A stretch of DNA of 64,000 nucleotides from Candidatus Gastranaerophilales bacterium. Its GTDB lineage: Bacteria > Cyanobacteriota > Vampirovibrionia > Gastranaerophilales > Gastranaerophilaceae. Of the stretch, positions 6,672 to 61,832 are shown in pieces (within the stretch, counting starts at the first letter, position 1; the number at the start of each line of letters is the position of its first letter). The position numbers were made by a program, and so were the translations under genes. The stretch is from contig CALVAR010000010.1 in the NCBI GenBank assembly GCA_944325575.1, positions 1 through 64,000 of the forward strand, written 5' to 3'. The notes beneath the pieces were generated by a model. The model made no database searches. It was given only the letters and a program-made list of their open reading frames with translations, and was not told the origin of the DNA.

Positions 6672-6936
6672 TGTCTGAGGCGGCCTCGCTTGTACTCAAA
6701 AGTATCCTGATATGTACGGCTCGTAAACTCGTCTATATCTCAAGCTGGCCGTGGTACACACTCTGCCGAATAAATATGCCGGTGGCATATTTATGAGAGG
6801 TAGCGAGGCCACATAAGCATAAATATAGCTAAAGTGACCCCATGCACTTGTTAGCTGTGCCGGACTTGTTGGTAAAAATGGGCTTGTTTATTGCACAGGT
6901 TCAATAAGTAGCCGGAGTCAGTTGACAATATGAAAT
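6672..6936 (-). repeat. Interspersed hairpin element, copy B (two hairpin modules inserted)
   Basis: Minus-strand copy from TTTCATATTGTC (6936) to CCTCAGACA (6672). It differs from the plain 174-bp form by two insertions. One, at about 6692-6745, is the module with GAGTTTACGAGCC and AGGATACTTTTGAGTAC. The other contains an 11-bp perfect stem, ATAAATATGCC/GGCATATTTAT (6770-6794), between the conserved flanks ACTCTGCCG and GAGAGGTA. The stretch 6460-6671 before it is plain AT-rich sequence with no gene seen. Confidence 0.85.
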
Positions 6937-14117: not shown

Positions 14118-14133
14118 TGGCGTCACGGATATA

Positions 14134-14307
14134 TTTCATATTGTCAACTGACTCCGACTACTTGATGAACCTGTGCAATAAACAAGTCCGTTTTTATCAG
14201 CAAGTCCAGCACAGGCAACAAGTGCATGGGGTCACTTCCGTAAAATGCTAGACTTGGCGTCACTCGCACTCCGTGCACCACTTCTACAAGCGAGGCCGCC
14301 TCAGACA
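14134..14307 (+). repeat. Interspersed hairpin element, copy C (plain form)
   Basis: Complete 174-bp form, from TTTCATATTGTC to CCTCAGACA. Two hairpins are visible. In the first, CTTG plus CCTGTGC pair with GCACAGG plus CAAG. In the second, GTGCATGG pairs with CCGTGCAC (one G-U pair). It lies 63 bases after murQ and is followed by a stretch of other repeats. Confidence 0.9.
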
Positions 14308-14370: not shown

Positions 14371-14744
14371 GTTGGGCAAGTATGCCCAACCTACAGCCTT
14401 TGTTTGTAATTTTTTATGCCCGCAAATTATTAGAACAAGTCCATATATAAGATTCTGAACACACACGTTCATTTCGCAAGGCACGTCTGGCGCTTCAGAA
14501 TGACATTGATTATTTGTCATCCTGAGGAGCGAAGCGAGCTCAGGATCTTACCGGTTCTTTGATAACACATCAAGTGTGTAAGATTCTGAACACAGCAATA
14601 TTTTTGCGGCAAAGCATATTCGATGCTTCAGAATGACGCTCATTCGTCCGTCGTCCTAAGTCTTATTGTGTTGGGCAGGTATGCCCAACCTACAACCCTC
14701 AGAATGACGGGCTTTATTGCGTTGGACAGGTATGTCCAACCTAC
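14371..14744. repeat. Island of small palindromic repeats
   Basis: No gene is seen between murQ and lysS. The island holds three copies of the GTTGGGCA/TGCCCAAC hairpin followed by CTAC (14371-14394, 14670-14693, 14721-14744); the third reads GTTGGACA/TGTCCAAC, a compensated pair change. Between them are hairpins of the type GTCATTCTGA/TCAGAATC (about 14449-14503, 14517-14550 and 14579-14637). The segment 14399-14505 (TTTGTTTGTAATT to CAGAATGACAT) is repeated with about 80 percent identity at 47929-48032. Confidence 0.8.
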
Positions 14745-16502: not shown

Positions 16503-16846
16503 TTTCATATTGTCAACTGACTCCGACTACTTGATGAACCTGTGCAATAAACAAGTCCGTTTTTATCAGCAAGTCCAGCACAGGCAACAGCGAAATCGGA
16601 CGGGGCTGACTGAAAGGAACGCCCCTTGTGAGGGAAAACCACGCTTTTCCCGAACGTCTGATTTCAAGACAGTGCATGGGGTCTACCTCTCAGAAACAAT
16701 ACTTAATTGTTTCTTCGGCAGAGTCGTAAAATGCTAGACTTGGCGTCACTCGCACTCCGTGCACCACTTCTAGCTTGAATCGTTGGCGAGTTTACGAGCC
16801 ATACGAATCAGGATGCTCTTGAGTACAAGCGAGGCCGCCTCAGACA
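16503..16846 (+). repeat. Interspersed hairpin element, copy D (three modules inserted)
   Basis: The longest copy, 344 bp, from TTTCATATTGTC to CCTCAGACA. Relative to copy C it has three insertions. The first is the cloverleaf module, outer stem 16592-16602 with 16655-16665. The second is a hairpin AGAAACAAT/ATTGTTTCT (16692-16713) between TACCTCTC and CGGCAGAGT. The third is the module at 16772-16828 with GAGTTTACGAGCC. It ends 27 bases before a sigma-28-like promoter element of the flagellin gene. Confidence 0.88.
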
Positions 16847-39400: not shown

Positions 39401-39574
39401 TGTCTGAGGCGGCCTCGCTTGTAGAAGTGGTACACGGAGTGCGAGTGACGCCAAGTCTAGCATTTTGCGGAAGTGACCCCATGCACTTGTTGCCTGTGCC
39501 GGACTTGTTGGCAAAAATGAACTTGTTTATAGCACAGGTTCATCAAGTAGTCGGAGTCAGTTGACAATATGAAA
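39401..39574 (-). repeat. Interspersed hairpin element, copy E (plain form)
   Basis: Minus-strand 174-bp copy, TGTCTGAGG at 39401 and GACAATATGAAA ending at 39574, 2 bases from the dnaN stop codon. It has small changes in the first hairpin (GTGCC/GGCAAAAATGAAC) but keeps both stems. Confidence 0.9.
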
Positions 39575-48143: not shown

Positions 48144-48316
48144 TGTCTGAGGCGGCCTCGCTTGTAGAAGTGGTGCACGGAGTGCGAGTGACGCCAAGTC
48201 TAGCATTTTACGGAAGTGACCCCATGCACTTGTTGCCTGTGCTGGACTTGCTGATAAAAACGGACTTGTTTATTGCACAGGTTCATCAAGTAGTCGGAGT
48301 CAGTTGACAATATGAA
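48144..48316 (-). repeat. Interspersed hairpin element, copy F (plain form)
   Basis: Minus-strand copy, TGTCTGAGG at 48144 and GACAATATGAAA ending at 48316; nearly identical to copies C and G. It lies 13 bases from the terminator of the second prepilin gene. Confidence 0.9.
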
Positions 48317-48328
48317 ATATTAAAAAAA

Positions 48329-58084: not shown

Positions 58085-58108
58085 GTAGGTTGGGCATACC
58101 TGCCCAAC
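58085..58108 (-). repeat. GTTGGGCA hairpin repeat
   Basis: GTTGGGCAGGTATGCCCAAC followed by CTAC on the minus strand, same family as the copies at 14371, 14670, 14721 and 48045. Confidence 0.75.
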
Positions 58109-61658: not shown

Positions 61659-61832
61659 TGTCTGAGGCGGCCTCGCTTGTAGAAGTGGTGCACGGAGTGC
61701 GAGTGACGCCAAGTCTAGCATTTTACGGAAGTGACCCCATGCACTTGTTGCCTGTGCTGGACTTGCTGATAAAAACGGACTTGTTTATTGCACAGGTTCA
61801 TCAAGTAGTCGGAGTCAGTTGACAATATGAAA
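61659..61832 (-). repeat. Interspersed hairpin element, copy G (plain form)
   Basis: Minus-strand copy, TGTCTGAGG at 61659 and GACAATATGAAA ending at 61832; nearly identical to copies C and F. It lies between the YhcH gene and the predicted small membrane protein. Confidence 0.9.

Follow-up and report, generated by a model that had tools for sequence, protein, structure and literature searches.

A modular small interspersed repeat, probably a non-autonomous mobile element, in a genus of Candidatus Gastranaerophilales

Small interspersed repeats of bacteria are usually explained by DDE transposases, in the case of miniature inverted-repeat transposable elements (MITEs), or by RAYT, in the case of repetitive extragenic palindromic sequences (REPs). 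The BOX elements of Streptococcus pneumoniae and S. suis are small modular hairpin repeats of 67-637 bp, for which terminal inverted repeats (TIRs) and target-site duplications (TSDs) have been reported (PMC3049150). The bcr repeats of the Bacillus cereus group are mobile, 100-400 bp long, present in up to 130 copies and restricted to that group, and a recombination-like mechanism has been proposed for them (PMC6542083). REPs and REPINs measure 20-40 bp and carry GTAG or CGTC tags, and their mobilisation as single strands has been proposed (PMC3733652, PMC3116915). For the cyanobacterial MITE Nezha, movement via an ISNpu3-like insertion sequence (IS) through similar TIRs is proposed (PMC3049150). 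Here we describe a repeat with a 174-bp minimal form, seven copies of which lie in a 64,000-nucleotide window (the whole stretch of DNA analysed) that represents contig 10 of a 2.02-Mb Candidatus Gastranaerophilales draft genome (G000). The genus that carries it consists of uncultured gut bacteria. The copies are many, their activity is apparently recent, and they bear the signature of neither a MITE nor a REP, which makes the question of what else moves small bacterial repeats a testable one.

It is close to certain, in our judgement, that the repeat is a non-autonomous mobile element. The fuller explanation that we favour, and consider probable, is that of a non-autonomous, BOX-like modular mobile element that travels as a folded single strand and is moved in trans by a non-DDE enzyme. 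Searches with 23-mer end patterns, allowing up to three mismatches, located 86 left and 67 right ends in the 2.02-Mb genome, whereas reversed patterns gave no site for either 23-mer in the same genome, indicating that the element is abundant far beyond chance. BLAST of the core recovered all seven copies (A to G) named in the original prediction, and the sharp ends claimed there were borne out. Small corrections apply to the end of copy B (6935), the end of copy F (48317) and the start of copy A, which is not at position 42. Copies C, F and G, for which near-complete conservation had been noted, are 100% identical across 174 bp, and three further identical cores lie outside the window (n = 6 genome-wide). 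The 55 complete copies collected include 29 of 173-174 bp, among which there are 11 distinct sequences; three of these sequences are each represented by six identical members. The inference of recent spread is supported by these identical copies, by empty sites in sister species and by copy numbers that differ across the genus.

Empty sites were identified by comparing the joined flanks of copies with sister species, so the comparison is at the level of species and not of strains of one species; it favours a mobile element. In seven clean filled/empty pairs (L038/L043, L043/L038, copy C/L089 and L133, L016/L252, L017/L138, L128/L221 and L188/L318) the empty site has no interruption and lacks exactly one base relative to the joined flanks. 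All these empty sites are orthologous places except L089, a paralogous sequence from the same genome as copy C. At copy C, the filled site GGATATA[E]ACATAG, with the element at E, corresponds to GGATATACATAG/GGATATGCATAG in relatives. Among other pairs, those of L039 and L209 show a two-base difference within A-runs, and those of L012 and L014 allow no clear reading. The inserted minimal unit is about 175 nt, consisting of one A or T followed by TTTCATAT...CAGACA.

No TSD was found when flanks were compared at offsets up to 8 and lengths of 1-9, nor at the empty sites, and TIRs are lacking: the left end, TTTCATAT[TA]GTCAACTGAC, and the right end, CTCAGACA, share only GTC/GAC-type words. Insertion sites are AT-rich, approximately WA^WWTT, with A or T at -2 and -1 and a T-rich stretch at +3 and +4. 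The left flank is merely A/T-rich, with no fixed tetranucleotide and no conserved short target directly 5' of the left end. The bases that border a copy on its left and right, at -1 and +1, show a tendency to complementarity (A/T 54, T/A 33, A/A 36, T/T 6).

These junctions bear on two alternatives. By the definition given in PMC3049150, the size, intergenic position and bursts of the element are MITE-like, as would be expected of a classical MITE moved by a DDE transposase; however, the absence of TIRs and TSDs, and empty sites that differ by one base only, already contradict that reading, which we regard as extremely improbable. Alternatively, a tyrosine or serine site-specific recombinase, either the host Xer or an integrase, might move the element, with the extra W serving as a coupling or core base. 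The single extra base, the lack of a TSD, the AT-rich target with its weak dyad preference and the complementarity bias of the -1 and +1 bases are all consistent with this proposal, but the two ends share no core, and we think it unlikely.

The copies had been described as lying only between genes and in both directions. Both directions do occur and most copies are intergenic, but "only" is too strong, for one relative has an in-frame copy within an open reading frame (ORF). At this locus (L188, G010:C49, 4877-5052) the copy lies inside a 644-codon membrane-protein ORF, where it adds 177 bp, or 59 codons, and keeps the frame; in many genomes across the genus, matches extend over the query to either side of the insert and leave the insert itself uncovered. 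Placement and orientation relative to genes are near-even, without clear preference, and no copy is long enough for, or was found with, a gene of its own. At L078 (G000:C15, 55863-55907) two left ends meet head to head and one is a short remnant, which looks like the insertion of a copy at the edge of another.

The repeat is a defined interspersed element, as predicted, but 174 bp is its minimal form and not its full size. Copies measure from about 113 to 654 bp, the longer ones being 210-552 bp in G000 and reaching 654 bp in relatives. This variation arises from five kinds of structured module, each of them optional and attached at set positions of the core, around the junctions of its fold. 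Module M0 (99 nt) occurs at core position 26/27, M1 (81-95 nt, tandem at times) at position 87, M2 at about 100-106 with a second site at about 134, M3 (53 nt) at position 121 and M4 (53 nt) at position 151. Outside the modules, long copies are often 99-100% identical to a 174-bp core, others being 91-98% identical, and L034 and L082 each reproduce a core identically save for one module. In M2, CTACCTCTC and CGGCAGAGT are kept and the stem between them is swapped wholesale, in at least six versions, every one of which is self-complementary; at each of its two sites M2 takes the place of a CACTYC hexamer, as can be read directly in the sequences. M1 folds into a three-way junction with symmetric GA/GA-type internal loops, around which the arms differ without losing their pairing. 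No form is more abundant than the shortest, from which it follows that the modules are dispensable for spread. We infer that the additional modules represent older, peripheral domains and that recombination between copies has led to their loss, exchange or duplication. Their exchange at fixed points in near-identical copies constitutes a natural record of the gain and loss of structured domains. The idea that the modules are independent repeats was rejected: of 47 cases of M2, 37 lie in complete elements, 9 in partial ones and just 1 outside an element.

Several of these forms are present in the window. Copy C (14134-14307, + strand) is the minimal 174-bp element, with one extra A at 14133. 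Copies F (48144-48317, - strand) and G (61659-61832, - strand), both 174 bp, match it exactly, F standing directly after a terminator-like hairpin and T-run, and copy E (39401-39574, - strand), also 174 bp, has about 95% identity with C. Copy D (16503-16846, + strand; 344 bp) carries M1 at about 16590-16670, M2A at about 16683-16724 and M4 at about 16773-16823, with 99.4% core identity outside the modules. Copy B (6672-6935, - strand; 264 bp) was resolved by BLAST and alignment into a core with M2B (CTACCTCTC-stem-TCGGCAGAGT) and M4. Copy A (1-269, + strand), likewise placed by BLAST and module alignment, contains the core, M1 at about 104-183 and, ending at 269, the variant right end CCTCAAACA; because the stretch 5' of position 42 is the 3' part of M0 (about 1-44), copy A is a long copy cut at the contig end (position 1).

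Covariation supports one of the two hairpins originally proposed. Hairpin 1 (CCTGTGC/GCACAGG) covaries on the + strand, with CG, GC, UA and AU at one pair and three types at the pair next to it. Its covariation score was reached by none of 500 shuffles, a test in which related sequences can outscore shuffles, and slid versions of the hairpin also scored far lower. Hairpin 2 (GTGCATGG/CCGTGCAC) was rejected: it has no pair with a two-sided change, its covariation score is no better than those of shuffles, and it competes with a better helix, P1 (TGACYCC/GGGGTCA). Across 26 to 29 diverse cores, about 95% of cells are paired in P1, P2-P3, hairpin 1 and P5 (CTCGC/GCGAG). In copy C the structured domain I, defined by the A1/A2 consensus structure and pair counts, spans 14149-14234 on the + strand, where P1 (TGACTCCG/TGGGGTCA) encloses P2 and hairpin 1. 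The + strand has 50 G.U cells versus 7 A.C, suggesting that it is the strand that folds.

So ornate a fold, together with whole-stem replacement, the symmetric GA/GA internal loops and the G.U bias of the + strand, would suit an RNA-based route of spread, by retrotransposition, by reverse splicing or with the element as RNA guide for IS110 or TnpB-type enzymes. However, no reverse transcriptase (RVT_1, PF00078), IS110 transposase (PF01548) or TnpB (PF07282) was detected in G000, the genome with six identical copies, and no Rfam intron or related model matches the element. This reading is already weakened and we give it very little credence.

RAYT-type Y1 genes, on the other hand, are present in G000 and G011, and the Y1 (RAYT, IS200-IS605-like) transposases of the genus might mobilise the element, which would then be an atypical, long REP-like element. 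The lack of a TSD, the subterminal hairpins and the orientation bias described below suit HUH/Y1 chemistry, and in G011 (L256, G011:C13) an intact RAYT gene lies between two similarly oriented copies, at distances of 47 bp (upstream) and 4 bp (downstream). Yet no Y1 gene was detected in the high-copy draft genomes G007, G010, G014, G015 and G022, the left flank has no fixed tetranucleotide, and the RAYT ORFs contain a separate hairpin repeat, of the GTTGGGCAAGTATGCCCAAC type, which points to that repeat family as the substrate of RAYT. RAYT was rejected as the helper for want of co-occurrence with the element, and we consider mobilisation by Y1 enzymes quite unlikely. The arrangement in G011 was also rejected as a composite unit, since a RAYT gene in G021 adjoins the same alcohol dehydrogenase gene without elements.

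A second interspersed repeat, GTAGGTTGGGCATACTTGCCCAAC, of the GTAG-tagged REP type, is found in the window at 14371-14387, 14670-14686 and 58092-58108, and at L254, L256 and L258. Its translation (VGQVCPT) occurs in frame within RAYT-type Y1 transposase genes of the genus, which suggests that RAYT may mobilise this family and may even have inserted the repeat into its own gene. L089 and L105 represent other dispersed repeats in the same genome, of the GTCATTCTGAGCG...GAAGAATCT type.

The enzymes missing from G000, and Y1 missing from several high-copy relatives, indicate that the helper is most likely of a class that joins ends without duplication and acts on the folded strand. Neighbouring copies in G000 share the same orientation in 42 of 57 cases, compared with 28.4 expected (p = 0.0001), and the tendency is the same in three relatives (p = 0.05, 0.28 and 0.04, from partial copy lists). 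Because orientation runs along contigs, insertion at the replication fork is possible. Raw GC skew was discarded as a marker of the replication strand, being dominated by the coding strand, and was replaced by a codon-corrected index, by which the link between copy orientation and replication strand is only suggestive.

In the explanation that we favour, the element would move in folded, single-stranded form, and a non-DDE recombinase or transposase, encoded by the host or the mobilome, would act on it in trans, possibly inserting it at the replication fork. That movement is both single-stranded and replication-linked is a tentative proposal, about which we have rather more doubt than confidence. 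Several observations weigh against the explanation. No mobilising enzyme was found, in searches that did not include PF00589, PF00239, PF07508 or the DDE families. Covarying pairs in the core are few (two strong, one weak), and the thermodynamic z-score is -1.87 for the 344-nt copy and a poor -0.89 for the minimal form, so that it is covariation, not stability, that supports the fold. The association with GC3/TA3 skew is weak (p = 0.017 by contig, 0.07 by copy, from sampled stretches of the genome), and its sign places the structured strand on the C-rich strand, whereas a folded + strand serving as lagging-strand template should give the opposite sign; this weakens the case for a link with replication. 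The absences, finally, were called on draft genomes. A bolder proposal is that of a mobile structured single strand (single-stranded DNA or RNA-templated), inserted at replication forks, with the addition of one A or T and without duplication, by an enzyme of a kind not yet described, and equipped with swappable RNA-like accessory domains; this would be a new class of bacterial mobile element, and we regard it as a long shot.

The element is present in most species of the genus, at up to about 90 copies per genome. BLAST found it in 18 of 23 genomes of the genus, 11 of them with at least 11 matches, and gave no match in the other 5; a single copy missed by BLAST was recovered in G004 with a covariance model. 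This model, built on domain I, matched 7 of 9 sampled members of the genus and 1 of 137 other genomes of the order. That single outsider, of another genus, has one full modular copy, which could be due to horizontal transfer or to a binning error. The bursts look species-specific. In a left-end pattern scan of named genomes, the matches listed came only from Candidatus Gastranaerophilales metagenome-assembled genomes, one "uncultured Clostridia" and one "uncultured bacterium", and there were no matches in viral contigs (exact pattern) or in phage and plasmid records. This distribution also bears on whether the repeat is an RNA or regulatory element of use to the host, retained for its function and multiplied incidentally. 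A structure under selection and conserved loops in the modules would agree with a host function, but the near-even position and orientation relative to genes, the genomes of the genus without a match, the recent identical copies at unrelated sites and the dispensable modules do not, and we consider it very unlikely.

The original prediction knew of no named family for the repeat, and this still holds: no Rfam 15 family matches, no Rfam model scoring above its gathering threshold, and no such family is described in the open-licence literature searched, for this lineage or any other. Among known repeats, the bcr family resembles the element in scale and in being mobile and group-restricted, but a repeated TTTAT motif goes with bcr and the element has no such duplication. 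REPs and REPINs with RAYT are likewise intergenic and hairpin-forming; the ends and size of the element, however, show neither a GTAG/CGTC tag nor a 20-40 bp palindrome, and G000 has a separate GTAG-type family. The element is a member of neither the bcr nor the REP family. Nezha and other cyanobacterial MITEs are also small non-autonomous repeats of the wider cyanobacterial lineage, but the movement proposed for Nezha depends on TIRs similar to those of an IS and the element has none. With BOX the element has in common that it is interspersed and mostly intergenic, that internal modules may be absent or repeated, that it is confined to near relatives, that it occurs occasionally in ORFs and that it has no gene of its own. 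It differs from BOX, from which it is set apart by description and not by alignment to boxA, boxB or boxC, in having neither TIRs nor TSDs and in carrying modules of several kinds at several fixed points, where BOX has one tandem boxB array. Modular, intergenic and parasitic, the element nonetheless appears, by analogy, to work most like BOX.
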